From: Desulfobacterales bacterium
GTDB lineage: Bacteria; Desulfobacterota; Desulfobacteria; Desulfobacterales; SpSt-501
DNA length: 37,030 nt
Reading direction: 5' to 3'
NCBI GenBank assembly: GCA_025454255.1
Contig: JALOOU010000055.1
Span: 1-37,030, forward strand
The notes under the pieces were generated by a model. It worked only from the letters and a program-made list of their open reading frames with translations, had not been told where the DNA came from and did not search any database. A program made the position numbers and the translations under genes. Shown piece by piece: positions 4,592 through 33,982 of this stretch. The stretch's first letter is position 1. The number at the start of each line of letters is the position of its first letter.

Positions 4592-4641
4592 TGACAGGCG
4601 CGGATGAGATTCCGATGAGAGGAGGGTTAGAAAATCAATAG
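4592..4641 (-). promoter_or_regulatory. Pho-box-like tandem repeat upstream of the phn operon (five 11-bp units)
   Basis: On the minus strand the hexamers CTATTG, CTAACC, CTCATC, CTCATC and CTGTCA occur exactly every 11 bp (plus-strand left ends 4636, 4625, 4614, 4603, 4592). This is the phasing of a PhoB box, and the last unit resembles the E. coli CTGTCAT half-site. The array sits between a gene end (4653) and the start of the phn operon (4562). No convincing -10 is found at the usual offset; CAGGCT at 4588-4593 is the best candidate. Function is inferred. Confidence 0.6.
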
Positions 4642-4652
4642 CGGCCGGGGGG

Positions 4653-4880
4653 CTACTGGACTTTGATCTTGGTCGCCCGCCGGCGCGCCCTGGGGCGGCT
4701 GCGCTTTTCGAGGGTCTCGACCCACTGGTCCACGACGATGCGCACGGCCTTCAGAAGCTGCAGCGCGCAGAGCGCCAGCTGCTCGCCGGTTTCGGTCCGC
4801 GGGGCGGATGCGCCCCACTGGCTGAAAAAACGCCCCACGGGGCACTCCGGGGAGGGGCAGGTGGATCTGGCTTTGCTCAT
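4653..4880 (-). CDS. small basic protein translationally coupled to ArsA-type ATPase
   Basis: Not a family I recognise. It is 75 aa, with an N-terminal CPSPECP motif, a central amphipathic/hydrophobic helix (ALCALQLLKAVRIVVDQWVE) and a strongly basic tail (RSRPRARRRATK). Its ATG at 4880 overlaps the stop of the ArsA gene as ATGA. The same coupling is used twice more in this cluster, which argues that it is real. An alternative 89-aa frame (4627-4896) has low-complexity Arg/Pro/Gly content and is probably a shadow. It is the last gene of the ATPase1-arsA unit. The C-x4-C pair could bind metal, which is speculative. Confidence 0.65.
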   Translation of the reverse strand: MSKARSTCPSPECPVGRFFSQWGASAPRTETGEQLALCALQLLKAVRIVVDQWVETLEKRSRPRARRRATKIKVQ

Positions 4881-6067
4881 GAGTCGATTCCTCCAAAGAG
4901 GATGTTCAGGTAAGGGGGGTCGACGCGCGCTGCAACCGTTTTCACGGAGACCAGGGGCTTGGGCAGCAGGATGTGCCGTTTGTAGCTGCCGATGCGCAGG
5001 ATCAGCTCGTCGGACACTTTGCTCAAATCGATGCTCTCCTTGACCACGAAGGGCAGCTTCAACTGCAGGCGATAGCGTCCATTCTCCTTGGTCAGCCGAT
5101 AGGGCTCCTCCTCGAAGAAGCGCTCCAGCGGGTTGCGCTCCGCGTAGAGTTCGGCCGCCAGGGCCGCGAGCCTCTCGGATCCGAGGATCTCCCCCTTGAA
5201 AAGGTTCACCGGGAGGACCGGCACGGGGTGGAAATAGCCCCGGGCAAGATCGGCGTAGCGGCCCTGGGAGGTGAGCCAGTCGCTGAAGAACTCCTCCCGA
5301 ATCCCGGAGGGCAGCAAGCGGTTCAGGATTACCGCGTCGATGCTCATCCGGTACAGATAAAAATACATGAACGCCCGCTGGGTCTCCTTGATCACCACCT
5401 TCTCGGGATTGGTGACCAGCCGCACCGTGGTGACCGCCGGGTCGGACAGGATGCGGTCCACTCCTTCCAGCCGGCTGAAGAGGCGCTCCAGCGCATTAAA
5501 GTAGTCCTCCCCCGGCAGGGGGACGTCGGTCAGCCGCTTGGCCAAGGGGCGTGCGCAGCGCACGATGGTGCGCTCGAGCTTGAAGAGTTTTTTCATGTAC
5601 CACTCGAGGGTGGTGGGAATGCTGATGAAGCGCAGGGACTCGCCGGTGGGAGCACAGTCGAGCAGCAGGGCGTCGAAGCGGCGCTGGCGCACGTACTGGT
5701 TGATGTAGAGCAGCAGGCTGACCTCCTCCATGCCGGGCAGGACCGCCAGCTCCTCGGCCAAGACCTCGTTCAGACCGGTCGTGTTCAAAAGGCCGGCGAG
5801 ATAGTGGTGGATGTCGCCCCAGTTGCGGTTGATCTCCTCCTGGATATCGAGCTCCTGAATCCACAGGTTGGGATGCACCTTGACGGGCCTGCCCCGCCCC
5901 TGGTCCAGCAGGCCTCGGTCAAGGTCGAAGATGTCCGCCAGGCTGTGGGCCACATCCAGGGACATGATCAGGGTTCGGCAGCCCTGATCGGCCGCACGGA
6001 CCCCGGTCGCGGCCGCCACTGAGGTTTTGCCGACCCCGCCCTTGCCCGCAAAAAAGATGATTCTCAT
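4877..6067 (-). CDS. ArsA/GET3-family ATPase with C-terminal HSP20-like domain
   Basis: Cytoplasmic anion-pump/tail-anchor type ATPase (396 aa). Residues 8-15 form the deviant Walker A GKGGVGKT. MSLDVAHSLADIFD and DCAPTGESLRFISIP are the family's switch regions. The last 80 residues (YRLQLKLPFVVKESIDLS... then LILRIGSYKRHILLP) look like the ArsA HSP20-like domain. I see no clear metalloid-binding cysteine set, so arsenite export is not supported, and there is no arsB beside it. The frame is open to 6235, but ATG 6067 begins MRIIFFAGKGG and overlaps the upstream P-type ATPase stop (ATGA). Coupling suggests it acts with that ATPase or chaperones a membrane client. Confidence 0.88.
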   Translation of the reverse strand: MRIIFFAGKGGVGKTSVAAATGVRAADQGCRTLIMSLDVAHSLADIFDLDRGLLDQGRGRPVKVHPNLWIQELDIQEEINRNWGDIHHYLAGLLNTTGLNEVLAEELAVLPGMEEVSLLLYINQYVRQRRFDALLLDCAPTGESLRFISIPTTLEWYMKKLFKLERTIVRCARPLAKRLTDVPLPGEDYFNALERLFSRLEGVDRILSDPAVTTVRLVTNPEKVVIKETQRAFMYFYLYRMSIDAVILNRLLPSGIREEFFSDWLTSQGRYADLARGYFHPVPVLPVNLFKGEILGSERLAALAAELYAERNPLERFFEEEPYRLTKENGRYRLQLKLPFVVKESIDLSKVSDELILRIGSYKRHILLPKPLVSVKTVAARVDPPYLNILFGGIDS

Positions 6068-9000
6068 TGAACGGCTCTCGAATGGGGCAGTTCCGTTCCG
6101 GGGCCACCCCGTGCCAGCAGCTGCCGGGCCAGCCACCCGCCCCCGGCCAAGGCCAGAAGATCCAGCATACCGCCGCCGGTCAGTGCAAACATCAGCAGCG
6201 GCGCAGCGGCCGCCCCCCAGAGCACCGGCGACCACCGCCGCGCGGCACCCGGCCGGCGTCCGGCCGGATTCTCCCCGAGAGCCAGCGTCAACTGGTTGAG
6301 TCCCACGCTGGCCCGGAAGAGGTCTTGCGCGGGCGCACCGCCGCCGTAGCGGCTGAACGCGTAGGCGCCGACCAGGCTAGAGGCGGCCATAACGGCCGCC
6401 GCGTCGGACAGCGAGCCGCTGATCTGCCCGCGGCCGATCACTGCCGTGCCTGCTTCCGGCAACCCGCCGACCTCATGGTCGTCGCCGGGGTCGACCGCAA
6501 GCGCCAGGGCCGCCGTATTGGCCCACACCGGCTGCAGCGGGTGCATACCCCCGGCCACGGCGCTTTTCGCGAGGGCGGCGGCGGCGAGGTCGACGTAGGT
6601 GGCGCCCGACAGAAACCTCAGGCTCTTGCGCATGTTCCCGTAAAACCGGCGGCCGCCTTGAATCGCGGCGCAGACCCCGCCGAGATCGTCGTTTTCCAGA
6701 ATCAGGTCGGCCGCCTTGCACGCCATGTCGGCGCCTTTCCGGCCCATGGCGATGCCCACATCCGCCACCTTGAGCGCCAGGACGTCGTTGAATCCGTCCC
6801 CGACCATGACGACGCTCAAACCGGCGCTCTGGTAGGCCTGGATGATTTGAAGCTTCTGCGCGGGGGTCAGCCGCGCGAACACGTGCGTGCGGGTGACGAT
6901 GCCGCTCATGCCGGAGAGCGCCACCCCGCGGAGTTCCGCGGCATCCAGGATCCTCAACGGCTCCGATCCGCTCAGCCCGAGCTGCGCGCCGATGTGCTGC
7001 GCGGTCAGGCCCTGGTCGCCGGTGAGCACGGCGGTCCGGATTCCGGAGCGGTGCAGCGTTTGCACCAGCTCCCGCGCTTCGCTGCGCACCGGGTCGGCCA
7101 GCCCCACCAGGCCGGCCCACACCAGGTTCGTGCCGTCCGTGTAGCGGCCCTCCTCGGTGCCCGCCCGCCCCCAGCCGAAGGCGAGCCCCAGCACCCGGAG
7201 ACCCTGGCCGGCCATACGAAAGTTTTCGGCCTCGATCCGTGCACGCGCGTCATCCGACAGAGGGTGCGTTTCTCCCCCCTGCCGGCAGTGGCGGCAGAGT
7301 TCCAGGACGTCGAAGGGGGCGCCCTTGATTGCGGTCAGCTCCTGGTCCTCGCTCCACTGGTGCACCGTCACCATGTAGGGGTGGTTTTCGGTGCGGTGGA
7401 AAATCTCCACGATGGGGTGCTCGCCCCGAAAGCGCGTGGAGTTGATCCCATTTTCTTCGGCGAAGTGAATCAGGGCTTTTTCGGTGGAGGAGCCCTCCAG
7501 GGACTGGGCTCCTTCGTGGATCATGAAGGCCTCGTTGCAGAGCACCCCCAGGCGGATGAGCCAATCGAGGTCCCCGCCCGCAGCCGACGGATGCGGGCCG
7601 ACGGCGGATCGCCCCCCGGCTGCGGCCGGGTCGACCCGGTCCCATCCGGCGCATAGGCCCGTCACGCTCATTTCGTTCAGGGTGAGGGTGCCGGTCTTGT
7701 CGAAGCAAACGATCTGGGTCGATGCCAGGTTGCCGAGGGCCCGCAGCCGGCGCACGAGGATTCGGCGGCGACCGAGGTCGCGATGGCCGAAGGCCAGGGC
7801 GCTGGCGCTGAGGGTCGAGAGCCCGGAGGGGATCGCGCCGGCCACGAGCGACAGGGCCTCTCTGAGCGCCGCGAAGAGCCCCTGGCCGCGCAGCAGTGAA
7901 AAGAGGCCGAACACCCCGCCCACTCCCATGCCCGCCATCAGGAAATGCCGGATCAGCCAGCGCATGTCCCGGGCGACTGCGGCCTCGGGCGGAAACACCG
8001 CCCCCAGGAAAACCTGCAGGCGGCCCAGGACGGTGTCGGTCCCGGTCGCAACCACCACGGCCCGGCCGGACCCCTCCACCACGAGGGTCCCGCGGTAGAC
8101 CATGTTGGAACGCTGGCTGAATAAGGGGTCGGGGTCGGCCGGAACCGCTGCCGATTTGAAGACCGGGATGCTCTCGCCGGTGAGGGCCGCTTCATCCACC
8201 GCGAGATGATCGGCTGCGACCAGGCGGGCGTCGGCGGGGATGCGCGAGCCGACCTGCAGATCCAGGATATCGCCGGGGACGAGCTCACCGAAGCCGATCT
8301 CAAACACCTTTCCGGTGCGGCAGACCCGGGCTTTCAGGTCGATGGCCGCTCGGACCTCGTCGAGCATGCGTTCGGCCCGGTTTTCGGCCACGCTCGATGC
8401 CAGGGCGTTGAAGAGGGCGATCGCCAGGGCCACCAGCCCCTCGGCCACGCCGCCGACCAGAATCGACAGAGCGGCGGCGGCGGCCACCAGAAAAACCGGC
8501 AATTCGGAGACCTGCCCTTTGAGGATGGCCGCAAAGGACCTGCCCGCCGTTGCCGGGAGCAGGTTGGCGCCGTGAAGGCGGTGGCGAAGCCCAGCTTCGC
8601 GCCGGGAAAGTCCGGAACGGGGCGAAACGTTGAAAACGCGAAGCACCTCGCCGGCTTTCATCCGGTGCCACGGCTGCGGGGATCCCTCCTCGCGCAGGGC
8701 CGGCGGCGGCGGGGGGCGTTGGGGCGCAGCCGGTCGCCCTTTCCGCCGCTGTTCGGGTTCCACCAACGCCCGGGCAATTAAGGCGCGCACCTCGGCCAGG
8801 GGCTGCGCGGGCCCGAATCGGACCAGGACGCTGCCCGTTGTCGGGCTGACGGCGACGTGGTGAACTCCCACCGCTGCCCGCAGGGCCTGATCGAGCAGGT
8901 TGGCCCGCTCGCGGTCCCGGCGGAGTTGCGGGATTCGGAACCGGGCCCGACCGGGCAGCGAATGAATCAGCTCCAGCATGGCGTGCGGCGCCTCCGTAGC

Positions 9001-9090
9001 GCAAGTTTCCCGCCCGGGTGAGCGAGCACCGTGGGGTTGTGCCACCGGGGGGTGAGGTGCCATAGCATGACCTTTCTCCCGATGGATCAT
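6064..9090 (-). CDS. P2-like P-type ATPase with N-terminal HMA_2-like domain and altered ion site (ATPase 1)
   Basis: Large membrane ATPase of about 1008 aa. Order (numbering from ATG 9090): HMA_2-like domain at 38-92 (SLPGRARFRIP ... TTGSVLVRF, no CxxC), proline-rich linker, M1-M2, actuator loop with TGES (304-307), M4, phosphorylation site DKTGTLT (D464), nucleotide domain with KGAPF, hinge TGDQ and VGDGFND (about 764), then C-terminal helices. Catalytic residues are intact. Ion-binding positions are not: M4 reads AIPSGLS instead of PEGL, and the M6 region reads WANTAALALAVDP, lacking the N-x3-D...P core. The transported ion, if any, is unknown. The start is uncertain: 9090 (after GAGGG), 9063 (after AAAGG) or 8979 (which matches the N-terminus of ATPase 2). 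A TTG at 9120 lies at the inferred transcription start and is rejected. Confidence 0.9.
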   Translation of the reverse strand: MIHREKGHAMAPHPPVAQPHGARSPGRETCATEAPHAMLELIHSLPGRARFRIPQLRRDRERANLLDQALRAAVGVHHVAVSPTTGSVLVRFGPAQPLAEVRALIARALVEPEQRRKGRPAAPQRPPPPPALREEGSPQPWHRMKAGEVLRVFNVSPRSGLSRREAGLRHRLHGANLLPATAGRSFAAILKGQVSELPVFLVAAAAALSILVGGVAEGLVALAIALFNALASSVAENRAERMLDEVRAAIDLKARVCRTGKVFEIGFGELVPGDILDLQVGSRIPADARLVAADHLAVDEAALTGESIPVFKSAAVPADPDPLFSQRSNMVYRGTLVVEGSGRAVVVATGTDTVLGRLQVFLGAVFPPEAAVARDMRWLIRHFLMAGMGVGGVFGLFSLLRGQGLFAALREALSLVAGAIPSGLSTLSASALAFGHRDLGRRRILVRRLRALGNLASTQIVCFDKTGTLTLNEMSVTGLCAGWDRVDPAAAGGRSAVGPHPSAAGGDLDWLIRLGVLCNEAFMIHEGAQSLEGSSTEKALIHFAEENGINSTRFRGEHPIVEIFHRTENHPYMVTVHQWSEDQELTAIKGAPFDVLELCRHCRQGGETHPLSDDARARIEAENFRMAGQGLRVLGLAFGWGRAGTEEGRYTDGTNLVWAGLVGLADPVRSEARELVQTLHRSGIRTAVLTGDQGLTAQHIGAQLGLSGSEPLRILDAAELRGVALSGMSGIVTRTHVFARLTPAQKLQIIQAYQSAGLSVVMVGDGFNDVLALKVADVGIAMGRKGADMACKAADLILENDDLGGVCAAIQGGRRFYGNMRKSLRFLSGATYVDLAAAALAKSAVAGGMHPLQPVWANTAALALAVDPGDDHEVGGLPEAGTAVIGRGQISGSLSDAAAVMAASSLVGAYAFSRYGGGAPAQDLFRASVGLNQLTLALGENPAGRRPGAARRWSPVLWGAAAAPLLMFALTGGGMLDLLALAGGGWLARQLLARGGPGTELPHSRAVQ

Positions 9091-9124
9091 TTTTTTTGTT
9101 CCCTCATAAAAATCTAACAAATCG

Positions 9125-9154
9125 ATTATAGGTTCATCCGCAGCCGGGATTCAA
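9125..9154 (-). promoter_or_regulatory. sigma70-type promoter for the ATPase1-arsA operon
   Basis: On the minus strand TTGAAT (9154-9149) and a perfect TATAAT (9130-9125) are separated by 18 bp. Transcription would start near 9118, just before the candidate starts of the ATPase gene. No 11-bp tandem site is present, so this unit may not share the Pho-like control of its neighbours. Confidence 0.6.
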
Positions 9155-9179
9155 ATCCTTTTTCCAGCCAAGGTGCCTC

Positions 9180-9470
9180 ATGATCTCCAAAGAATGCAAC
9201 CTGACCGATTTCGCCGGGGCCTTGCACGGCAAGGACTTTTTTGAGGTCATCCGCATGGCCGATCTCGAAGCGACCGAGGCCGAGCGGCTGGGTTTGAGAA
9301 CGCGTGTCGACTCCGCGCGGCGCCAGCGCTGCGGCAAGGAGTACGCCGAGCTCCTCAAGCAATTCATCGCCTATGTTCGGTATGGAGTGGTGCCGCGTGG
9401 GTTGAGCCGCCGCGACCTCGACATTTTCCGATCCCTGACCCCGGCCACCCGCCCCCCGCGCGGCCTGTAG
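9180..9470 (+). CDS. conserved-looking hypothetical protein, 96 aa
   Basis: Family not recognised. It is divergent from the ATPase1 operon. AAGGTG lies 7 nt before the ATG. The product is soluble and helical, rich in charged residues (DFFEVIRMADLEATEAERLG ... CGKEYAELLKQFIAYVRYG), with a Pro/Arg tail. There are no transmembrane segments and only two cysteines. The opposite-strand frame (9134-9367) is a shadow. It may be a regulator or partner of the ATPase cluster, but only position supports this. Confidence 0.6.
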   Translation: MISKECNLTDFAGALHGKDFFEVIRMADLEATEAERLGLRTRVDSARRQRCGKEYAELLKQFIAYVRYGVVPRGLSRRDLDIFRSLTPATRPPRGL

Positions 9471-9540
9471 CCGCGAGTTTAGGAAAGACGCCGCATTTAC
9501 CTCGCCTCGTTGTGGAGCTGTTCCCGTTCGTCACCGATTT

Positions 9541-9583
9541 CTAGTGCGGCGCTAATTCGCGGCTAACGCATGGCCGCCAGAAT
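9541..9583 (+). promoter_or_regulatory. Pho-box-like tandem site plus -10 for the zinc-ribbon/HMA_2 operon
   Basis: Cores CTAG (9541), CTAA (9552) and CTAA (9563) are spaced exactly 11 bp apart. CAGAAT (9578-9583), a 4/6 match to TATAAT, begins 15 bp after the first base of the last core, the same offset seen at the other sites. The first gene starts at 9614, giving a leader of about 25 nt. Confidence 0.65.
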
Positions 9584-9613
9584 CAGCCTGCCAATCTATC
9601 GGAAAGGACCACC

Positions 9614-9979
9614 GTGGTGACGACCGCCAGCCAGACGGCGAAAGGCAGGATCGGCAGCAGTCATCGATCGGTCCGGAAATTGCCCGAAGGGACCCGTCGC
9701 AAAATGATCAGCGGTGTGGTTTGCCCCAGATGCGCATCGGAAGCCATATACCGTTATGGGAAGACCGCAGCGGGGCATAAACGCTACCTCTGTCAGGCGT
9801 GCCGGCGTCAATTCACCCTGGCCGACCGCGTCTGGCTCAGCGCCGCCGAGCGCCCCGCCTGCCCCGTGTGCGGCAAGAAGATGCATGTCTACATGCGATC
9901 GGCCGGACTGACCCGTTTCCGCTGCAGCGATTATCCGGACTGCCACACCTTTCTCAAGCGCGCCCCGCTGGAGAGATGA
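9614..9979 (+). CDS. double zinc-ribbon protein
   Basis: The product is 121 aa with two cysteine clusters. The first, CPRCASEAIYRYGK then CQACRRQF (about residues 37-66), resembles the InsA/transposase-type zinc ribbon. The second, CPVCGKKM ... CSDYPDC (about residues 83-113), resembles topoisomerase C-terminal zinc fingers. It likely binds nucleic acid or zinc. No transposase, inverted repeat or target duplication is seen nearby, so I do not call it an insertion sequence. Start is GTG at 9614 after GGAAAGGA; GTG 9617 is an alternative. It ends 4 nt before the HMA_2-like gene and shares its promoter. Confidence 0.7.
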   Translation: MVTTASQTAKGRIGSSHRSVRKLPEGTRRKMISGVVCPRCASEAIYRYGKTAAGHKRYLCQACRRQFTLADRVWLSAAERPACPVCGKKMHVYMRSAGLTRFRCSDYPDCHTFLKRAPLER

Positions 9980-9983
9980 GGCC

Positions 9984-10355
9984 ATGCGATACTACTGCCA
10001 CCATGTACCGGGCAGACTTCGAGTCAAGCTTCCCGACCTCAAGCGGAAGCCGGCCGCGGCGGATCGCGTGCAAAAAATCCTGGACGGACTCAAGGGCGTA
10101 ATCGCCGTGAAGGTGACCCCGTTGACCGGAAGCGTCGTTGTGCACTACGACCCGGATCGAACCACTCATGATCGGATCCTGGCCCCCCTGCAGGATCACG
10201 GGTTGTTCGACGCCTCGCTGGCCATTTCCAACGACGAACAGGTGCAGGCCGCCGTGGCGGATGCCGGAATGCGGCTGGGACGGGCCGCACTGGGGTGGGC
10301 CGTGGGAAGAAGCTTGAACGCCGGCGGGTTCTCCCTGCTCGCCGCCTTTCTCTGA
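9984..10355 (+). CDS. stand-alone HMA_2-like protein
   Basis: The product is 123 aa. Residues 4-60 form the same HMA_2-like fold seen at the N-terminus of both ATPases: HHVPGRLRVKLPDL, then VKVTPLTGSVVVHYDP. The metal-binding CxxC of classical heavy-metal domains is absent; instead an R-x-R-[hydrophobic]-K/R motif is conserved. The C-terminal 35 residues (AGMRLGRAALGWAVGRSLNAGG) form a glycine-rich amphipathic or membrane-associating helix. The ATG follows GAGATGAGG from the preceding gene's end. A role as a partner or metallochaperone for the P-type ATPases is inferred from the shared domain and position. Confidence 0.75.
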   Translation: MRYYCHHVPGRLRVKLPDLKRKPAAADRVQKILDGLKGVIAVKVTPLTGSVVVHYDPDRTTHDRILAPLQDHGLFDASLAISNDEQVQAAVADAGMRLGRAALGWAVGRSLNAGGFSLLAAFL

Positions 10356-10444
10356 ACGAACCTTCAGCGGCGGACCGCCCCGGCAACCCAATACCCTCAG
10401 CGGCACGACCGGCGGGCCAACCCCTGTTCGCCCCTCGCCTGCGT

Positions 10445-14670: not shown

Positions 14671-14773
14671 CTGCGCTCCGCTGCGAACCGCGGCAGTGGA
14701 CAAGGCGGATCGACAACTGGCCGCATGTCCTCGCTGCCAAGATGTACGCTGCGGTTCAGAATCCCCGCGGATG

Positions 14774-14811
14774 GTTATGGGGGCATTCGTGAAAGGTTAG
14801 AATTCGGCTAG
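14774..14811 (-). promoter_or_regulatory. short Pho-box-like site upstream of ATPase 2
   Basis: Two minus-strand cores, CTAG (14811-14808) and CTAA (14800-14797), are 11 bp apart. No good -10 lies at the 15-bp offset; CATAAC (14779-14774) is the nearest. This is weaker than the other sites, and the gene could instead be read from the upstream DUF5132 promoter, since only 190 bp separate the genes. Confidence 0.4.
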
Positions 14812-15848: not shown

Positions 15849-15902
15849 ATCCTAGCAGACGAAAATTAGCCTATCATTAAATTTGAGTTAGCAAATCGCT
15901 AG
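15849..15902 (-). promoter_or_regulatory. Pho-box-like tandem site (four units) plus -10 for the DUF5132 operon
   Basis: Minus-strand cores CTAG (from 15902), CTAA (15891), TTAA (15880) and CTAA (15869) are each exactly 11 bp apart. TAGGAT (15854-15849) starts 15 bp after the last core. The offset works only in the minus direction, so the site serves 15683 and not a plus-strand gene. It lies just downstream of the phoA terminator hairpin. Confidence 0.7.
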
Positions 15903-17463: not shown

Positions 17464-17642
17464 CTTCGCACTCCTCGGATTCAAGGGTTGGTTTCGCTGT
17501 GACCAAAGAAAGGCTTGCCTGTTGCTGGATCCGCCGGATCGATGGATTCACCTCCTTTCGTTTTGAAATGCGCTGGGAGCGGCCCCCGGCGATGAGGAGC
17601 AACGGATGCCGGGAAATGAGCTGAGGCTGCTTATGCTGGGAA

Positions 17643-17685
17643 GAGTAGCGCGACTTTTTGAGGAGGTGGTGAGTGGAAAATTAGT
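17643..17685 (-). promoter_or_regulatory. Pho-box-like tandem site upstream of phoA
   Basis: Minus-strand cores CTAA (from 17685), CTCA (17674) and CTCA (17663) are 11 bp apart, and TACTCT (17648-17643) starts 15 bp after the last core. CATAAG (17636-17631) is an alternative -10. CTCA cores also occur in the phn and phoU sites. Confidence 0.5.
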
Positions 17686-17750
17686 TTTTCATCAATCGGG
17701 ACCGGCCCGGCGCCAGGCGGCAGCGCCTCTCTCATGGAACCGACGCGGCG

Positions 17751-20010: not shown

Positions 20011-20053
20011 ACAATGCCCGAAACTGGTTAAAGGTTGCTTAGCGTTGGGTTAA
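20011..20053 (-). promoter_or_regulatory. Pho-box-like tandem site plus -10 for phnXW
   Basis: Minus-strand cores TTAA (from 20053), CTAA (20042) and TTAA (20031) are exactly 11 bp apart. CATTGT (20016-20011), a weak -10, begins 15 bp after the last core. The nearest minus-strand genes downstream are the 56-aa frame and phnX. Confidence 0.6.
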
Positions 20054-20183
20054 ATTTTGATTCGGCGGGGCGCTGGGGCTTGTGTGACTTTTATGAAGCG
20101 GCCGAAAAATCAACCGTTCTGGTTGGTCAGGAGAAGACCGCGGCGGCAATCTGCCCGGCAGGCTGACATCGATGGGGGGGGCT

Positions 20184-22770: not shown

Positions 22771-22890
22771 GATCAGAGCGGATGCGATGAGAACCAGCGG
22801 CGCTGCGGCCGAACTTTACCCCCCTCGGGATAACACACGCTGCCGGCGTATTTTGCTGAACGGGAAACCGATTTCTAACCTGTTCCACAT
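22771..22890 (-). pseudogene. upstream in-frame remnant of the SPFH gene interrupted by TAA
   Basis: Minus-strand reading from ATG 22890 gives 24 codons (MWNRLEIGFPFSKIRR...), then TAA, then SSAAAPLVLIASALI, which joins the SPFH frame without a shift. Basic N-terminus followed by a hydrophobic helix is the normal prohibitin topology. No good ribosome site precedes 22890. A G-rich run (GAGGGGGG) lies just before the TAA. Confidence 0.35.
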
Positions 22891-23020
22891 CAAAGCCGAA
22901 CCGCCGGACCGGAAACTGTTTGAATATCCGGCGCCCGCCCCGTGCGAAGATTCTGCGGGCCACCACAACGTAACATCACGCCGCATCGTCGGCGTTCGCC
23001 ATCAGCGACATGGGACTGCG

Positions 23021-26359: not shown

Positions 26360-26373
26360 GGCAGCCGTGCGGC

Positions 26374-26901: not shown

Positions 26902-26924
26902 AGGATTCTCCTTTGAATGCGCCG

Positions 26925-26956
26925 ATGATATCCTCGCAGCATTAACCCCCGGTTAG
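26925..26956 (-). promoter_or_regulatory. Pho-box-like site plus -10 for the PAP2-glycosyltransferase operon
   Basis: Minus-strand cores CTAA (from 26956) and TTAA (26945) are 11 bp apart, and TATCAT (26930-26925) begins 15 bp after the second core. TATCAT is also the -10 of phoU at the same offset. Confidence 0.65.
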
Positions 26957-27016
26957 CGCAGCGTTTCTTTTTCGTGAAACGCAAACCGCCGGCTGTGGGC
27001 CGGGATGAGGAACGCC

Positions 27017-28924
27017 TCAGGAGCGGGCGCCGGCCTGCCGCCGGAGAGGCTCCGGCGGCGGAGCGATGAAGCCGCCTGCGGGGAAGGTGCCGGCATCGCC
27101 CCGGAGCCCTTCCGACGCTGCCGGCTGCGGCGCCACCCGCAGTTTGGCGCGGGCAATGCCGCGCTGGACCAGCTCGGGCAGCTGTTCTTCGGACGAGACG
27201 TACACCGCATCCATCTGGCCGTAGAACCACAGGGTGTAGCGCCAGCACATCTCCTCGATGAACCCATCCCGCGTGATCTCCCGTGCCAGGCGCGGCAGCT
27301 GGTCGCTGAAGTCGGCCGTCATCGGCAGCTTCAAGAAGCGGCCGATGAACAGGCCGGCCAAACCCGCCGGGCCGGCGGAGGCCATGTGCACCCGGCCGAA
27401 ACGGCCCCTGTAGCAGTAGTCCAGCATCTCGAGCACCGGCGGGTAAACCATCCGGTCGTGCGGCAGCTCGTTGAATTCGTAGACCCCGATGGGGTCGAAG
27501 CGCTTGACCGCTTCGGAGTCAGCCGCGCCGGCCTCGCAGGTCAGGAGCATGGCGTGCGGCTGCGATCGGCCGAAGGCATGCGTGCGGATCGATTGCAGCC
27601 CGCCGGCATGCGTATCCGCAAAGAGTGCGCACGCCTGCGAGAGCAACCGCTCGTGCCGCCCGTTGTGGCCAAAGCGGTCCAACACGGCCTGGCTGAACTG
27701 CCGCTGCCGGTTGTAAATGGAGAAGGCCATCGCATAGGGGGTCAAGAGCGTGCAGAACCCGCCGGCGGAGCCGATGGTCTGAAAAATATTGAACAGATTG
27801 GCCCCCGATACATGGCCCATCAGGTGGTTGGCGCATCCCAGTAGAATCCGGTTGGACATCTTGTCCATGAAGCTGAACCAGCGCGTTTCCATCCGTTTGG
27901 ACATCCAGTCGCCGGCCTCCGGCAGGTCGAACAGCGCCGGGTCTTCGTGCAGCAGCCGCGATGTCTCCTGCTGCAGGAGCTCGACCAGGGGGCCCGGAAT
28001 GCTGCCCTGGATTTTGCGGATCCGGCGATACTGCCACAGGAAATGCAGCCGCGCCATGAATCCCGACTCGGCCCCCTCCGCCAGCCGCAGGCAGCGGTCG
28101 ACGAAGCGCAGCAGGAAATGCTGGGGCACCTCCCGGCTCACACCCAGCTTCTGACGATAAAACTGGTAGGCGATGCTGTAGAGGTTGTGCGCCACGGTCT
28201 GGGGCGAGGAGGGCCGCTGGATCACCTGCGCCCGCCCGGACTCTATCCCGGCCAGAAAATCGTCGACGCCCGCCGCGCCCTCCACCTGGGTGAAGCTGCG
28301 CGAGATGTTGAGGGAGCTATGATCGTCGGAGCCGCCGATCAGGTTCTTGCGCCAGGGATCCGGCCAGAGCGGAGAGATTCCATGGGTGTCGGCCAGACGC
28401 TCGATGTCGGCGGGCGTCAAGGCGGACAGGAGCGCCTCCAGGCTGCGGTTGGATTCCGGGTTGCTATCGCCGTTCAACTCGAAATTGCGGAACAGCAGCA
28501 GGAGCTTTTCGATGTGGGCCACCGTCAAGCGATCGTTGACCGCATACATCGGGTGGGCCAGGGCACAGGGGATGGCCGCCTCCTTCAGATAGCGGGCCAA
28601 GTCGTAGACATCGGCGCGGACCTTCTGGATCTCCGCGTGCTGGGCCTCGGTGATGCGATAGACCAGCACATGGACCTTGCAGCCGTCCTCGGGGAAATAG
28701 GCGGTCACCTCCTCGCTCACGAAGGTCCCGGGAAGATGCGCGATCTCGAGGGCGCCGTCGATCTTGTTGTGGTCCGTGATGGTCACCAGCGTCATGCCCC
28801 GCCGCCGGGCAATGTGGTAGAGCTGCAACGGGTCGGTAAAGCTCTCGGGGCAGCCGATCTTTTGCAGGAACCACTGGGAGGGCCGGGTCGAGTGCCGCGA
28901 ATGCACGTGCAGGTCCGCTTTCAT
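27017..28924 (-). CDS. PHP-domain hydrolase fused to an N-terminal half of a GT4 glycosyltransferase
   Basis: The product is 635 aa. Residues 1-230 are a PHP metal-dependent phosphoesterase domain: DLHVHSRHS, TITDHNKIDG, FVSEEVTAYFP, CALAHPMYAVND and GGSDDHSSLN carry the metal ligands. A helical middle follows. Residues from about 440 resemble the N-terminal Rossmann half of GT4 enzymes (YEFNELPHDRMVYPPVLEML, HMASAGPAGLAGLFIGRFLK, TADFSDQLPRLARE, WRYTLWFYGQMDAVYVSSEE). The nucleotide-sugar half that normally follows is absent: after RVAPQP the sequence turns Pro/Gly/Arg-rich and stops 116 nt before PAP2. I chose ATG 28924, with GAGGAG 5 nt upstream, over the longer frame to 28954. It may be a broken or regulatory glycosyltransferase. 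Confidence 0.8.
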   Translation of the reverse strand: MKADLHVHSRHSTRPSQWFLQKIGCPESFTDPLQLYHIARRRGMTLVTITDHNKIDGALEIAHLPGTFVSEEVTAYFPEDGCKVHVLVYRITEAQHAEIQKVRADVYDLARYLKEAAIPCALAHPMYAVNDRLTVAHIEKLLLLFRNFELNGDSNPESNRSLEALLSALTPADIERLADTHGISPLWPDPWRKNLIGGSDDHSSLNISRSFTQVEGAAGVDDFLAGIESGRAQVIQRPSSPQTVAHNLYSIAYQFYRQKLGVSREVPQHFLLRFVDRCLRLAEGAESGFMARLHFLWQYRRIRKIQGSIPGPLVELLQQETSRLLHEDPALFDLPEAGDWMSKRMETRWFSFMDKMSNRILLGCANHLMGHVSGANLFNIFQTIGSAGGFCTLLTPYAMAFSIYNRQRQFSQAVLDRFGHNGRHERLLSQACALFADTHAGGLQSIRTHAFGRSQPHAMLLTCEAGAADSEAVKRFDPIGVYEFNELPHDRMVYPPVLEMLDYCYRGRFGRVHMASAGPAGLAGLFIGRFLKLPMTADFSDQLPRLAREITRDGFIEEMCWRYTLWFYGQMDAVYVSSEEQLPELVQRGIARAKLRVAPQPAASEGLRGDAGTFPAGGFIAPPPEPLRRQAGARS

Positions 28925-28972
28925 CATCGCTCCTCTGGACAAGGGTTGGCGCAAACGCTCATGTCTAGGCGA

Positions 28973-29015
28973 AGTAAATCAACATGCTGTTAGTTCAAGA
29001 TTAAATCAGCGCTAA
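28973..29015 (-). promoter_or_regulatory. Pho-box-like tandem site plus -10 for the PHP/GT4 gene
   Basis: Minus-strand cores TTAG (from 29015), TTAA (29004) and CTAA (28993) are each 11 bp apart. TTTACT (28978-28973) starts 15 bp after the last core. Confidence 0.65.
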
Positions 29016-29114
29016 ATGTTGATGAAACCGGTCGATTTTGCCGCGCACCGGGCGAGGTGCGCGCGCAGCACGTTACCCGCCCGATCCAAAACGGCTGCGA
29101 GTGGTTTAAGCCGC

Positions 29115-29145
29115 CATGATCGCGGCAGGATGCCGCTCCCACAGG
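29115..29145. repeat. REP-like palindromic element, copy 1
   Basis: ATGATCGCGGC-AGGAT-GCCGCTCCCACAGG, containing the short stem GCGGC/GCCGC. Nearly the same sequence occurs at 34745-34776. The form (palindrome followed by CTCCCACA) resembles dispersed REP elements of GC-rich bacteria. It lies in the 262-bp gap between the LysE gene end and the PHP/GT4 gene, which otherwise contains only that gene's promoter. Confidence 0.6.
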
Positions 29146-29186
29146 ATGATTCGTCGCTATGCGCAACTATGTGCGAGGGCTCTGCT

Positions 29187-29822
29187 CTAAAACGAACCGG
29201 GTTGGCGAACAAAAGGAGTGATGCCGAGGAAAATCCCGCAGAGCAGCAATGCAATGCCGCTGGCGCGCTGCAGCCGCCGCAGGTGCTCGTGCTGCAGGAG
29301 CGGCTTGAGCATCGCAGCGCCGATGACCAGAATCGGCGCCCACAGGAGCGAGCCCAAGAAGACGCCCGCCATCAGCAGGGCGGCCGCCGCCGGCATCGAA
29401 ACCCACGCGGGACCGCTGAAGGCGGAAATGGCTGCGCTGATGATGAGGATCGGCAGCGGGTTTGAGAGCATCAGAAAGAAGGTCGAAAAAAGGGAGCCCA
29501 TCAGGTTCTGGCGCCGCCCCGAAGTGCCGCGTGCGCCGGAATGCTCCCGTGTCAGGTGGAAACCGACCAGGGCCAGCGCCAGCCCGCCGAGCGGCTGGAT
29601 CCAGGAGCGGCCCTCTTCCAAAAACCCCGAAACCAGCGTGATGCCCAACGCCGCGACGAGACAGTAGGCTGCGTCCACCACCGCTGCGCCCAGCACAGCG
29701 AGCGCCCCCGCCAGCCGGCCGTCCACAAGAGCGTGCCGGATGCACAGAATGCCGACCGGTCCGAGCGGGGCGCACAACAGAAAGCCCACGGCAACCCCTT
29801 TCCAGAACAAGGCAAACTCCAT
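29187..29822 (-). CDS. LysE/RhtB-family exporter
   Basis: Inner-membrane small-molecule exporter of 211 aa with six hydrophobic segments. The N-terminal motif LLCAPLGPVGILCIRHALVDGR is the LysE signature (GP-x-G...R-x2-L-x-GR). FFLMLSNPLPILIISA is the second conserved segment (NPxP). The frame is open to 29852 and beyond, but ATG 29822 with GGGAG 6 nt upstream gives the family N-terminus. The exported compound cannot be deduced; amino acids such as lysine, ornithine or threonine are typical. The divergent neighbour is an ornithine-lipid synthase. Its own tandem site lies at 29894-29936. Confidence 0.85.
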   Translation of the reverse strand: MEFALFWKGVAVGFLLCAPLGPVGILCIRHALVDGRLAGALAVLGAAVVDAAYCLVAALGITLVSGFLEEGRSWIQPLGGLALALVGFHLTREHSGARGTSGRRQNLMGSLFSTFFLMLSNPLPILIISAAISAFSGPAWVSMPAAAALLMAGVFLGSLLWAPILVIGAAMLKPLLQHEHLRRLQRASGIALLLCGIFLGITPFVRQPGSF

Positions 29823-29893
29823 AGCCGCTCCCGAGGCCCTCCGGCGCCGCACGGCTCGCTTGGCACGCCGGCAGGCGATGGTGCTTCCCGCCG

Positions 29894-29936
29894 ATCATGG
29901 CCCGGACCCGTTAGCAGCGCGTTAACCTGCGGCTAG
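29894..29936 (-). promoter_or_regulatory. Pho-box-like tandem site plus -10 for the LysE gene
   Basis: Minus-strand cores CTAG (from 29936), TTAA (29925) and CTAA (29914) are 11 bp apart. CATGAT (29899-29894) starts 15 bp after the last core. The plus direction gives no -10 at that offset. Confidence 0.65.
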
Positions 29937-30005
29937 ATTTGAATGCACCCTGCACCGCGCCGCTCGGCTCGAGCGATCCCCGCCCCGAATTCGGCCCACA
30001 AAAAA

Positions 30006-30048
30006 TTAGCAGCGCGCTAGCAGGATTCTAAAAACCGCCCGCTATGCT
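30006..30048 (+). promoter_or_regulatory. Pho-box-like tandem site plus -10 for the olsF-like gene
   Basis: Cores TTAG (30006), CTAG (30017) and CTAA (30028) are exactly 11 bp apart. TATGCT (30043-30048), a good -10, starts 15 bp after the last core. It is back-to-back with the LysE site, 70 bp away, on the other strand. Confidence 0.7.
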
Positions 30049-30199
30049 CACACTCCAACAGCGCCGGAAAAGAACCGCTGCCTCTGGGGGGCGGCGGCCG
30101 TCGCCCCCGAGCTCTGCCGGCCGGCCATCCGCCCTTTTCCGGTGCGAGGACGACATCGACGCCAACCCAACCAATCGTTCTGACTCGCAAGGAGACCCG

Positions 30200-32074
30200 A
30201 TGGAGAACTCTATTTCACATCCGCCCTCTTTTTCGATCGCACCGCGTTTGTCGGAGTCGAAGCATCACCCAATGGTCGCCCGCGGCGTGCATGCGGCCGA
30301 TCGCGTGTTGGGACTCACCGGCTGCGCTGCGCTCTACGATCGCATCTCGGGGGTCCAGGCGCCGGAGGGCTTCATGCGCGCCCTGCTGGCTAAAATGGAT
30401 GTGCGCTGCGAGCCCAGCCGGCAGGAAATAGAACAGATCCCTCGCAAGGGGCCGTTGGTGGTGGTCGCCAATCACCCCTTCGGCGGGATCGAGGGGATTG
30501 TCCTCGCGGATCTGCTGATCTCGGTTCGGCCGGACCTGAAAATCATGGCCAACTTCATGTTGAACCGCATACCTCAGCTTCGAGGCCTGACCATCCCGGT
30601 CGATCCGTTCAACCGGCCCGGGTCGGCCCGCAGCAACGCCGGGCCGATCCGTGCCGCGTTGCGCTGGGTTGAGGCCGGAGGGATGCTTTTGGTGTTTCCG
30701 GCAGGGGAAGTCGCGCACTTCAAACTGCGGCGCTGGGGGATCGCCGACAGCGCCTGGAGCCCGTCCGTCGGCCTCATCGTCCGCAGAGCCCGCGCCGCGG
30801 TTCTCCCCATTTTCGTGAGAGGCCGAAACGGGCTCGGCTTCCATGCCGCCGGCATGATCCACCCGCGCCTGCGCACCGCCCTGCTGGCCCGTGAGTTGAT
30901 CAACAAGCAGCGCCGGCGGGTCGACGTCAAAATCGGGGCGCCCATTGCGTTTCGCTGGACGCAGCGCTACCCGGATGATTCACGGCGGGTGGAGTACCTG
31001 CGGTGGAGAACCCTCATCCTGGGCTGCCGGCCGTCGGCGGGCATCCGCATGCCCGCCATCGTGAAGATGCCGCGCGCGCGCAAGGAGCAGCCGCTGGCCC
31101 GCCCCCAGGAGACCGACCTGTGCCGCCGCGAGATCGAACGCCTGCCTTTCTCCCAGCGTTTGGCGCAAAGCGGCGATTTCTCCGTCTGGCAGGCCGAGGC
31201 CGGGCAAATCCCCCACCTGTTGCAGGAGATCGGACGCCTGCGGGAAATCTCCTTCCGGGCGGCCTCCGAGGGGACCGGAAACCCTGTGGACCTGGACCGA
31301 TTCGACCCCCACTACCTGCACCTGTTTGTCTGGAACGAAGCCGCCGCCGAAATCGTCGGCGCCTACCGGCTCGGCCGGAGCGATATTCTCTTGAGCCGCT
31401 TTGGCCGCAAAGGCCTTTACACGAGCACCCTGTTCCACACCCAGGCGCAGTTTTTCAAAAGACTGGGGCCCGCGCTGGAGCTCGGCCGATCCTTCGTCCG
31501 GCCCGAATATCAGCGCTCCTATGCCCCCCTGCTGCTGCTGTGGAAGGGCATCGGTGGATTCATCGGGCGCCACCCCCGGTATCGACGGCTGTTCGGGCCG
31601 GTCAGCATCAGCCGCGACTACAGCGACCTCTCGCGGCGCCTGATCGCCACCACCCTGCTTCAGCACAGCCAGGCGAAGGACCTTGCGCTCATGGTCCGGC
31701 CGCGGCGTCCGGCCAAAATCGCCCCCATCCGCATACCCGGATGCGCGCCATCCGGGAAGACGCTGCACCTCGCGGATTTCAAGGAGGTGTGTGCGGTGAT
31801 CGCCGACATCGAATTCCAGAAGCGCGACGTCCCGGTTCTGCTGCGGCATTATCTCAACCTGGGCGGGCAGCTGCTCGGGTTCAACATCGACCGGGGTTTC
31901 GGCAACGTCATGGACGGACTGATCGTGGTGGACCTGCTTCAGACCGATCGCAAGACCCTTGAACGCTACATGGGGGAGGAGGGGGTCGCCGCGCTGATGG
32001 CCTGCCACGGGGCCTGCGCCGAGGCCGAATCACCGCCCGCCGCGCGCGAGGCGCAGAGGCCCCATGCAGGCTGA
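30200..32074 (+). CDS. olsF: bifunctional ornithine-lipid synthase (OlsF-like acyltransferase)
   Basis: The product is 624 aa with two acyltransferase domains. The N-terminal PlsC-type domain has NHPFGGIEG (91-99), a later FPAGEVAHFKLRRWG and a C-terminal region used for lyso-lipid O-acylation. The C-terminal domain (about 340-600) is OlsB/GNAT-like, with ELGRSFVRPEYQRSYAPLLL-type sequence then WKGIGGFIGRHP, expected to N-acylate ornithine. This order is that of OlsF, which makes phosphate-free ornithine lipid in one protein. ATG 30200 has AAGGAG 5 nt upstream; the longer frame from 30044 starts at the -10 box and is rejected. The 237 bp after it hold a hairpin (32154-32174) without a T-run and the phoH terminator. 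Confidence 0.8.
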   Translation: MENSISHPPSFSIAPRLSESKHHPMVARGVHAADRVLGLTGCAALYDRISGVQAPEGFMRALLAKMDVRCEPSRQEIEQIPRKGPLVVVANHPFGGIEGIVLADLLISVRPDLKIMANFMLNRIPQLRGLTIPVDPFNRPGSARSNAGPIRAALRWVEAGGMLLVFPAGEVAHFKLRRWGIADSAWSPSVGLIVRRARAAVLPIFVRGRNGLGFHAAGMIHPRLRTALLARELINKQRRRVDVKIGAPIAFRWTQRYPDDSRRVEYLRWRTLILGCRPSAGIRMPAIVKMPRARKEQPLARPQETDLCRREIERLPFSQRLAQSGDFSVWQAEAGQIPHLLQEIGRLREISFRAASEGTGNPVDLDRFDPHYLHLFVWNEAAAEIVGAYRLGRSDILLSRFGRKGLYTSTLFHTQAQFFKRLGPALELGRSFVRPEYQRSYAPLLLLWKGIGGFIGRHPRYRRLFGPVSISRDYSDLSRRLIATTLLQHSQAKDLALMVRPRRPAKIAPIRIPGCAPSGKTLHLADFKEVCAVIADIEFQKRDVPVLLRHYLNLGGQLLGFNIDRGFGNVMDGLIVVDLLQTDRKTLERYMGEEGVAALMACHGACAEAESPPAAREAQRPHAG

Positions 32075-32274
32075 TCGCAGTATTTATCTGGACGGCAACC
32101 CGGACAGCAGCGGGCTCGCCGGATAACGGGCGCGCTCCGCTTCAGGCCATTTTCCGCTGTCGCCCTCTCAGCGGCAGCGGAATAAAATGATCCGTTGCGG
32201 CGTTGAGGCCTCACTTCCACCGGGAGCGGCCGGAACGGAGGGGTCCCCATTTGAATATGTTTTATTGCCGGTTT

Positions 32275-32298
32275 AAAAAAACGCCTTCTGCTGGGCGC
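32275..32298 (-). terminator. intrinsic terminator of phoH
   Basis: On the minus strand GCGCC, an 8-nt loop and GGCG(T) are followed directly by seven T residues. It lies 14-37 nt beyond the phoH stop. Confidence 0.7.
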
Positions 32299-32311
32299 AT
32301 CCGTACTGACT

Positions 32312-33508
32312 TCAGAGTCCGGTGGAAATCACCAGGTCGGTGATGGGGCCGCGGGATTTGTCCCCCTTGAGCACGATGTGGGCGTAAATCCGGCTGCCCT
32401 TGAATTTCTTGACCACCCAGTTCAGGCCGTTGTTCTCCTGGTTGAGATAAAGGTTGTCCACCTGGCGGGTGTCCCCCAGGCACAGGCACTTCACCCCCTC
32501 CCCCATGCGGGAGAGCAGCGCGCGGCACTCCGAACGCGCCATGTTCTGCATCTCGTCGACGATGACCACGGCATTGTCGATGTTCATGCCCCGGATGTAG
32601 GCGAGCGGCAGAACCTCGAAGATCTTGGAGTTGAACTGCGGCGGGTAGGCGTCCGCCTCGACGAAAACCTTGTTGGCGGGCCGTAGCCGGTGCAGCTTTG
32701 CCAGCAGGTCGGCGATGTAGCGCATGTAGGGCTCCATCTTCTCTTCGATCCGGCCGGGCAGGAAGCCGAGCTTCTGGCCGATCTCGATGGTGGGCTTGAT
32801 CACGTAGACCTTCTGGTGGGACTTGCGTTCGAGCACCAGGTAAAGCGCCGCGGCGAGCGCCAGATAGCTCTTGCCGTAGCCGGCCTCGCTCTGCACCGAG
32901 ACGATGTCGATCCCCGGGTGGGTCATCAGCTCCATGGCCAAGTTCTGAAACACGTTCCGGGGTGCGACCTTCCAGACCTTGTGCTGGTAGTCGATCACCT
33001 TTTCCCCGTCGGGCCCGAAAAAGACGGGCTTGCCCTGTTCGTTCCACATGAAGGCGTTGGCCACCGCCTCCGCCCGGTCGGCCACGAAGCCGGTGAAGTA
33101 TTCCGCCTCCGACTTGAACGGCACCGACTCCTTGTAGATCTCGCTGGTGATGCCCCGCAGCCGCGCCTGGAGCTGGAAGATCTTGTCGTTGGTCACCAGG
33201 ATGGGCTTTTCCAAACCGCTGGACTGGATTTCGTCCAGAATGAAATTGTCCACCAGGTTCGCGTAGGGGTCGGCAACCGCGGTGGAGTGCAGAATCTTGA
33301 AAGCGTCCGGGTTTGCGACCAGGTACTCGATGACGCGGGCGACGATGTGGCGCAGCTTGGGGTCTTTTTTGATTTTGTTCAGCTCGAGAAGCACATGGTA
33401 AGGGATGAAGACGTGGTTTTCGTTGCCGTTTCTGAGCTTTACCAGCGAGTTGGGGTCCTCCAGGAGCACATTGGTGTCGATGATGTAGTTTTTCTGCTGA
33501 TCGAGCAT
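32312..33508 (-). CDS. phoH: PhoH-family ATPase with N-terminal PIN domain
   Basis: The product is 398 aa. Residues 1-140 are a PIN ribonuclease domain (YIIDTNVLLEDP with the first acidic residue, ILVTNDKIFQLQA with later ones). A linker follows, then a PhoH P-loop ATPase with Walker A SEAGYGKS (207-214) and Walker B VVIVDEMQN. This PhoH2-type fusion is a toxin-like RNA helicase/RNase in actinobacteria; phoH itself was first found as a phosphate-starvation gene in E. coli. I chose ATG 33508, preceded by GAGGTGA, over the start at 33532. The leader is about 260 nt if the promoter is at 33772. An 84-aa frame in that leader (33514-33768) is not supported. Confidence 0.92.
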   Translation of the reverse strand: MLDQQKNYIIDTNVLLEDPNSLVKLRNGNENHVFIPYHVLLELNKIKKDPKLRHIVARVIEYLVANPDAFKILHSTAVADPYANLVDNFILDEIQSSGLEKPILVTNDKIFQLQARLRGITSEIYKESVPFKSEAEYFTGFVADRAEAVANAFMWNEQGKPVFFGPDGEKVIDYQHKVWKVAPRNVFQNLAMELMTHPGIDIVSVQSEAGYGKSYLALAAALYLVLERKSHQKVYVIKPTIEIGQKLGFLPGRIEEKMEPYMRYIADLLAKLHRLRPANKVFVEADAYPPQFNSKIFEVLPLAYIRGMNIDNAVVIVDEMQNMARSECRALLSRMGEGVKCLCLGDTRQVDNLYLNQENNGLNWVVKKFKGSRIYAHIVLKGDKSRGPITDLVISTGL

Positions 33509-33771
33509 GCGTCTCACCTCAGATAAGCGCAAAATGGCGGTAAGCCTCCCCTTCTTGACGCGAGCGGCGAGGGAGGCCCAGAGACATCGGCTTCCGGAGC
33601 GTCGACCGAACGATTGTGGAACGGGTGCGGCCGGGCAATAGACAGCGAGCGATCGGTGGCGAAGATCCGGTGGGAGGGACAGGCGGATGGCCGGTTTAGC
33701 TCATGGAGATCGGCTATGGGCATCGTCGTATCCAAGACCAGTGTAGCCAAAATAGCCCCTGGGGTCAAGCC

Positions 33772-33814
33772 AATTCATCAACATATGGTTAGCCTGGTAT
33801 TAGCTTGCCACTAA
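33772..33814 (-). promoter_or_regulatory. Pho-box-like tandem site, probably for phoH
   Basis: Plus-strand cores TTAG (33789), TTAG (33800) and CTAA (33811) are exactly 11 bp apart. On the minus strand TGAATT (33777-33772) is at the 15-bp offset, a weak -10; the plus strand offers TTTTTG, which is worse. Assignment to phoH rather than phoU is tentative. Confidence 0.55.
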
Positions 33815-33928
33815 ATATTGATTATTTTTGACAACTTCTGTGGGCGCAGGAGCTCAGGTCGGAAATCAGGCTTTCCGCAGGAGCGCCGGATATGGTAGAA
33901 TCGAAATGTCGGAGCGGGGGGCTAAGCT

Positions 33929-33982
33929 TTAACAAAGGCCTAGCCGTTTCCTCACACAGCGCTAGCGCACGGTTTTTATCAT
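33929..33982 (+). promoter_or_regulatory. Pho-box-like tandem site (four units) plus -10 for phoU
   Basis: Cores TTAA (33929), CTAG (33940), CTCA (33951) and CTAG (33962) are each exactly 11 bp apart. TATCAT (33977-33982) starts 15 bp after the last core, 50 nt before the phoU ATG. The rest of the 523-bp phoH-phoU gap holds only this site, the phoH site and AT-rich spacer. Confidence 0.75.

Follow-up and report, generated by a model that had tools for sequence, protein, structure and literature searches.

YTAAC-type direct repeats with an 11-bp period as probable Pho boxes of a Desulfobacterales bacterium

Introduction

In Escherichia coli, the Pho box is a direct repeat of CTGTCAT-N4 units with a period of 11 bp, four of which are found in pstS. 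The PhoP box of Bacillus subtilis is built from TT(A/C/T)ACA repeats. In the sulphate reducer Desulfovibrio vulgaris, the PhoB box (DVU1083) is (c/t)GT(n)AC, its recognition by the PhoB orthologue having been shown by gel shift, and was published as an 18-bp site of two repeats (PMC3333781, PMC6456213). The cyanobacterial SphR Pho box, CTTAACCT, consists of at least three copies of 8-bp tandem repeats with a 3-bp linker (PMC1906773). Here we describe promoter arrays in a 37,030-nucleotide stretch of contig JALOOU010000055.1 (assembly GCA_025454255.1) from a Desulfobacterales bacterium, hereafter the window, in which short cores of the type YTAR (Y, C or T; R, A or G) recur every 11 bp before phosphonate, phosphatase, ornithine-lipid and further genes. 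These arrays are very probably the Pho boxes of this bacterium.

The arrays share with the E. coli Pho box the 11-bp direct repeats and the 15-bp spacing to the -10 hexamer, but carry YTA[A/G]C instead of GTCAT, with the T and the A between the changed bases retained. In the E. coli K-12 pstS stretch, the final CTGTCAC begins at position 141 and the -10 hexamer TATTTT at 158; counted from the G of GTCAC, the distance is 15 bp, and YTAAC thus occupies the place of GTCAT. An earlier note on this DNA, made from its letters alone, had stated that the half-site is unlike CTGTCAT in most copies. This is true, apart from a CTGTC unit found in phn only, and in register the new half-site replaces GTCAT. 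Of the B. subtilis sequences, TTAACA is similar to our TTAAC units, and TTCACA to the degenerate first unit TTCAC. With the D. vulgaris box, the arrays have in common the sulphate-reducer lineage, the direct repeat, a T-x-A-C core and the register frame, whereas the first core base is G there and C or T here. The SphR box likewise has a period of 11 and a TTAAC core resembling our TTAAC units, but it belongs to another phylum and another regulator, and here the last two units more often begin with C than with T. No YTAAC Pho box is described in the open-access papers and listings that our search covered (subscription papers and RegPrecise were outside it).

Results

Arrays with a period of 11 bp in the window

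YTAR cores were chained at every period from 5 to 30 bp, three in register being counted as a strict triple. At period 11, the window contains 19 pairs, 8 triples and 1 quadruple, and all 8 triples are intergenic. Other periods gave no triple and at most 2 pairs, except for the harmonic at period 22 with 9 pairs. Such arrays could be a compositional accident of AT-rich intergenic DNA in a GC-rich genome, for the cores are AT-rich, and G+C is 65% in the window and 64% in background stretches of the own genome. However, only period 11 and its double are enriched, 1000 dinucleotide-preserving shuffles of the 3,861 intergenic bases of the window yielded a mean of 0.003 triples (maximum 2), and the same period recurs at the pst and phoB genes of relatives (see below). 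The background, 16 stretches of the own genome with 320,000 bases in all, contained 3 period-11 pairs and no triple. On the strength of the period control and the shuffles, chance composition was rejected; we regard its probability as negligible. No Rfam family reached its gathering score within the window.

The twelve arrays are listed below with window coordinates, strand, gene, units and -10 hexamer. Throughout, offsets such as +15 give the distance in bp from the first base of the last core to the start of the hexamer; the prefixes G, C and L denote genomes, contigs and loci.

4587..4641, minus strand, phn operon: CTATT, CTAAC, CTCAT, CTCAT, CTGTC; no clear -10; before a hexapeptide gene and phnG-H-I-J
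9530..9583, plus strand, zinc-ribbon gene 9614: GTCAC-CTAGT-CTAAT-CTAAC; -10 CAGAAT at +15; zinc-ribbon array also in G006
14780..14811, minus strand, P-type ATPase 2: two units, CTAGC-CTAAC; no convincing -10
15849..15902, minus strand, DUF5132 gene: CTAGC-CTAAC-TTAAT-CTAAT; -10 TAGGAT; DUF5132 array also in G006
17642..17695, minus strand, phoA (alkaline phosphatase): TTGAT-CTAAT-CTCAC-CTCAA; -10 TACTCT
20011..20064, minus strand, phnX-phnW: CGAAT-TTAAC-CTAAG-TTAAC; -10 CATTGT
26925..26978, minus strand, PAP2 phosphatase and glycosyltransferase: TTCAC-GAAAC-CTAAC-TTAAT; -10 TATCAT
28973..29026, minus strand, PHP/GT4: TTCAT-TTAGC-TTAAT-CTAAC; -10 TTTACT; PHP array also in G006
29894..29947, minus strand, LysE-type exporter: TGCAT-CTAGC-TTAAC-CTAAC; -10 CATGAT; LysE array also in G006
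29995..30048, plus strand, olsF (ornithine lipid synthase): CCCAC-TTAGC-CTAGC-CTAAA; -10 TATGCT; olsF arrays also in G001 (before the gene) and G006 (at the gene)
33772..33825, minus strand, PhoH: ATAAT-TTAGT-CTAAT-CTAAC; weak -10 TGAATT
33929..33982, plus strand, phoU: TTAAC-CTAGC-CTCAC-CTAGC; -10 TATCAT; phoU also preceded by an array of two units in G001 and of four in G004

The earlier note had placed YTAR cores every 11 bp at these twelve sites, and all of them are read there. The cores it assigned to the units stand for most arrays and fail in two: phn has one YTAR in five units (CTAT, CTAA, CTCA, CTCA, CTGT) and phoA one in three, so that both match only a looser core. The note had overlooked a further, degenerate unit in register at -33. 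For this comparison, 13 sites of the own genome were aligned on their last core, from which upstream distances are counted, comprising eleven of the twelve window sites (phn left out) and the phoB and pstC sites described below. The pattern nnnAY is present at -33 in 11 of the 13, the exceptions being DUF5132 with CTAGC and ATPase 2 with none; at -44, none of the 13 has the conserved A. In relatives, the extra upstream unit is seen as TTCAC or YTAAC. The array thus usually consists of four half-sites, equivalent to two Pho boxes as defined in PMC4415409. The distance from the array to the listed start is long in some cases (phnX, 291 bp; phoH, 260 bp; phoA, 178 bp). A further period-11 pair of YTAR (two units, 34851-34865) is found at the 3' ends of phoU and a topoisomerase gene, where no promoter is expected.

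Spacing to the -10 hexamer

The nine -10 hexamers that had been reported at +15 are present as listed; phn and ATPase 2 have no convincing -10 and that of phoH is weak. Among the own-genome sites, [TC]ANNNT is found at +15 in 9 of 13 and in at most 2 at any other offset from 4 to 35; the degenerate last unit of the own phoB array was chosen after seeing its -10, and the count becomes 8 of 12 without it. The 15-bp rule of the earlier note recurs in the genomes of relatives. The set consisted of 36 arrays, corresponding to 35 unique ones (L145 and L152 are the same site), with own phoB (L119) excluded; the own order contributed 30 and further GTDB loci 5, and their orientation was set by core asymmetry alone. 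TANNNT began at +15 in 17 of the 35, and any other single offset between 4 and 31 had it in 0-4 arrays; position +15 is T in 29 of them, and position +16 is A in 32. The phoB arrays of genus mates have a hexamer at +15 of the last nnAAY unit, namely TAATTT (G001), CATCCT (G002), CAGAAT (G003) and TAAATT (G004, G005); the last unit was picked after seeing the hexamers and this series is descriptive and no test.

Genome scan and relatives

The source genome comprises 4.11 Mb in 194 contigs and is 87% complete. MAFFT introduced gaps into the 11 sites of 54 bases, and a gap-free alignment of ten window sites was obtained by trimming the flanks, with ATPase 2 (two units, no -10) and phn left out. 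From this alignment (A2) we built a sequence-only model, R1, with which 150/180 candidates were scored in the own genome and 70-109 per genome in relatives, at thresholds of E<=10 in the own genome and E<=0.5 in 57 relatives. The own genome gave 9 matches, eight of them training sites. The single new one, CTAAC-TTAGC-CTAAC-CTAAC with TATCCA at +15, is located before pstC (TIGR02138, 284 bits, cut-off 196) and is divergent from phnC, which also exceeds its NCBIfam cut-off. An array also precedes the own phoB (L010:2388; CTAAC-TTAAC-CTAGC-ACAAC, with TAATTT at +15 of the fourth unit). In a scan of the kind that the earlier note had proposed, pstC was thus the sole new own-genome site.

In the relatives, R1 had 12 matches, 11 of them distinct, and 10 of the 11 precede phoB, pstS, pstC (two), PPK2, olsF, PHP/GT4, LysE, DUF5132 or a zinc-ribbon gene. 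The olsF, PHP, LysE, DUF5132 and zinc-ribbon matches represent gene kinds of the window and hence conservation, whereas the other five are phosphate genes outside the training set. At the PPK2 site (L239; G040:C4:325580-325620, minus strand), the array with TAGATT at +15 stands before a polyphosphate kinase 2 gene (PF03976). The 11th site (L245:1501-1540; G001:C100:57643-57682, minus strand) has TATCGA at +15 and only a 32-codon open reading frame (ORF) downstream; resembling a lone membrane helix, its product is a candidate small protein of the Pho regulon. In G006, the PHP promoter occurs nearly identically (81/82 bases) on two contigs (L244 and L246; C222 and C232), reflecting either a duplication or an assembly overlap.

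Loci from the own order and genus were then counted for strict triples, using 58 genomes including the own and the best 30 each of 41 phoB, 46 pstS and 46 phoU matches; the YTAR search fixes the first and third core bases in the arrays of relatives. Strict triples were present in 20 of 30 pstS loci, all from relatives, and in 10 of 30 phoB loci, one of which is the own (relatives, 9 of 29); one site (G017) is counted under both genes. Period-11 triples totalled 32, 11 and 4 for pstS, phoB and phoU, respectively, where the other periods averaged 0.54, 0.17 and 0.04; in the pstS loci, periods 10 and 12 had none and no remaining period had more than 4. A further 80 GTDB loci were gathered through PhoB matches, and the ones listed had at least 2 triples, or 1 with low background. 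Arrays stand out among them in NaphS2, where one is placed about 100 bp ahead of pstSCAB and another precedes a Porin_5 gene, and in a deltaproteobacterium, where one separates phoU from phoB and another precedes an unassigned ORF. L064 (Marinobacter), L066 and L109 have one triple each. In Spirochaetales MAG.283 (L034:9918), a metagenome-assembled genome (MAG), a YTAAC-type array is placed immediately 5' of phoB, and this box class therefore extends beyond Desulfobacterota, by either shared descent or transfer.

PhoB and its kinase

The own genome encodes two proteins with a PF00486 (Trans_reg_C, OmpR-type) match at E<=0.001. One, on C188, is a second regulator of this type; the other, P0001 (C91:2498-3187), has TIGR02154 PhoB as its best match (244 bits), and its nearest neighbours among named PhoB proteins are from a Desulfobacterales MAG (69%) and NaphS2 (62%). 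Directly 3' of P0001 is a kinase matching PnpS NF046044 with 403.7 bits (cut-off 400) and PhoR TIGR02966 with 312 bits (cut-off 334), and a PstB fragment is found at the end of the same contig. In the own genome, neither a pstS (TIGR02136, E<=1e-50) nor a PstB above cut-off was found, which we read as incomplete assembly.

The arrays might instead be bound by another OmpR/PhoB-family regulator, either the one on C188 or one encoded in the missing part of the genome, and define an envelope or stress regulon that overlaps with phosphate genes. Direct-repeat binding is general in this family (PMC4832192), several of the array genes are envelope or metal genes, and the assembly is 87% complete. 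On the other hand, arrays precede phoB itself and pst genes in many genomes, just two Trans_reg_C proteins were found, and the box type tracks the PhoB helix in the loci compared (see below). We consider such a regulator very unlikely, and PhoB the probable binder.

Recognition helix and half-site

The recognition helix of P0001 reads VDVQVVGLR, compared to VDVHIRRLR in the fetched enterobacterial loci. Each of the 30 PhoB proteins fetched from the own order has a helix with VDVQ or IDVQ (DVQ class), and so do 7 GTDB PhoB proteins, among them that of Spirochaetales MAG.283 (VDVQILGIR). D[VA]H[VI]RRLR (RRLR set) is found in 29 GTDB PhoB proteins; the helix pattern failed in 14 of the 80 GTDB loci, and 30 have another helix and no clear box (TGTCA, 4 pairs at period 11, maximum elsewhere 3). 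The arginine lost from the DVQ class is, we presume, the base-contacting arginine of E. coli PhoB. In the DVQ sets, YTAAC pairs at period 11 number 15 (own order, in 12 of 30 loci) and 7 (GTDB, in 4 of 7), with other-period means of 0.57 and 0.13, and TGTCA pairs number 0 and 1. The RRLR set has 7 TGTCA pairs at period 11 (mean 0.57) and 4 YTAAC pairs (mean 1.57, maximum 5), the latter corresponding to background. Thus, the box type tracks the PhoB helix class in the loci compared, and the deviant half-site is probably due to the altered recognition helix of PhoB.

Alternatively, the half-site could be the D. vulgaris box (c/t)GT(n)AC in relaxed form, implying no separate specificity. T-x-A-C in a direct repeat is common to both (PMC3333781, PMC6456213), and array lists selected with YTAR carry no information on G at the first core base. 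In the 37 DVQ-class loci, GTNAC pairs at period 11 number 0 (mean at other periods 1.1-1.5) against 22 YTAAC pairs, and we find this alternative unlikely. The remaining preferences were read from the 35 arrays of relatives: the last two units start with C, not T, in 29 and 30 arrays, the fourth base is A rather than G in 34, 35 and 35, and the fifth is C rather than T in 26, 24 and 25. In the units of the window, G is common at the fourth base. A PhoB tree of 96 rows (FastTree, helix columns included) requires three changes for the DVQ class, which may yet have arisen once; we do not claim a single origin.

We lean towards the view that PhoB proteins with VDVQ[VI]xGLR form a distinct specificity class that reads YTAAC rather than GTCAT while keeping the promoter geometry, that this class spans the own order of Desulfobacterota as well as at least one Spirochaetales genome, and that the unexpected array genes, including the one for the 32-residue peptide of G001, are true Pho members.

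The Pho island

The gene kinds of the window (phosphonate, phosphatase and ornithine-lipid genes, PhoH and PhoU) are partly common to genus mates, where they are clustered in partly rearranged order. In G002, the order is ppdk-GT-PAP2-phoH-PHP-LysE-olsF-ATPase1-zinc ribbon-metK-ATPase2-HMA-DUF5132-arsA, followed by phn and phoU. In G002, G003 and G004, a single contig carries both phoB and olsF, about 16 kb apart. Several genus mates have arrays before phoB, phoU, olsF, LysE, PHP or ppdk, and five control stretches contained no period-11 triple.

Under phosphate limitation, Desulfovibrio alaskensis G20 makes phosphorus-free lipids by olsF and a glycolipid synthase, agt (PMC5193443). The window similarly has both olsF and a glycosyltransferase resembling diglucosyl-diacylglycerol and monogalactosyldiacylglycerol (MGDG) synthases. 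Here olsF carries a promoter array, whereas the term 'binding site' is absent from the available text of that paper. In light of the D. alaskensis data, the island looks like a unit for phosphate scavenging and lipid replacement. No array was found before the diglucosyl-diacylglycerol/MGDG-synthase-like glycosyltransferase of the window. A two-unit array stands between phoB and a divergent glycolipid glycosyltransferase in G003 (L217:13155) and G002 (L222:11199), and this gene may share the phoB promoter there. The P-type ATPase, zinc-ribbon, LysE, DUF5132 and PHP/GT4 genes would count as phosphate genes by their promoters alone.

Two genes deserve separate comment. The listed olsF ATG is inside the -10 hexamer TATGCT (30044-30048), and the olsF matches of relatives start at residues 10, 36, 47-49, 85 and 95; for both reasons, translation probably begins further downstream. 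In G006, the olsF match (C222:1143-3143) contains two TGA and one TAG and partly overlaps the promoter array, and its stop codons may be upstream of the true start. Upstream of the PPDK-like gene (23058), CTAAC with the degenerate in-register neighbours GAAAC, CACAT and CGAAC was seen by eye (22864-22901). Two-unit arrays are present before the PPDK-like gene in genus mates (L222:19185, L229:545, L232:632). From its sequence, this region is a possible further Pho promoter.

Discussion

We put the probability at roughly nine in ten that the arrays are Pho boxes of this bacterium, bound by PhoB, with induction of the Pho island at low phosphate. The earlier note had proposed as much, and the proposal is strengthened by the arrays at phoB and pstC in the own genome and by the recurrence at pst and phoB genes in relatives; binding and induction are inferred by analogy. 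Several observations weigh against it. P0001 is below the NCBIfam PhoB cut-off (244 vs 296 bits). R1 misses the training sites phoA and phoU and the own phoB array; since this model is weak, recovering 8 of its 10 training sites and missing the phoB array, its silence in 52 of 58 genomes says little. Among relatives, 20 of 29 phoB loci are without a strict triple, and only 2 of 29 phoU loci have one (the third of the 30 is the own locus, via the phoH array). The low phoU count speaks against a universal rule, and phoU may often be inside the pst operon. Three loci of genus mates (L219, L223 and L224 from G002 and G003, with phn, phoU, phoH, PAP2 and ATPases) are without any period-11 pair, and conservation of the exact cores is thus incomplete. 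Finally, judged by eye, phoU of G001-G003 and phoB of L030 have their -10-like hexamer at +12 instead of +15. In the phoU promoters of L219, L224 and L232 (G003, G002 and G001), the hexamer at +12 of the fourth unit comes after TGG or TTGG; these are possibly a second spacing class.

The mechanism is drawn by analogy to E. coli PhoB and is well supported by geometry and gene context. Phosphorylated PhoB (P0001) would bind about four [C/T]TA[A/G][C/T] half-sites, arranged head to tail and 11 bp apart. The bound protein would take the -35 region and recruit sigma-70 RNA polymerase to the -10 at +15. At low phosphate, this would induce carbon-phosphorus lyase (phn), phosphonatase (phnWX), alkaline phosphatase, olsF, PAP2, PhoH, PhoU and further genes.

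In conclusion, the arrays would provide a usable promoter code for phosphate starvation in mostly uncultivated anaerobes, in which a search with CTGTCAT would yield almost nothing. They present a natural case where recognition helix and half-site differ and the promoter geometry is constant, such that the specificity code of PhoB becomes directly testable. Phosphonate use and ornithine-lipid synthesis are predicted to be parts of one clustered regulon. If VDVQ[VI]xGLR proteins are indeed a distinct class, phosphate regulons would be predictable in many uncultivated relatives.

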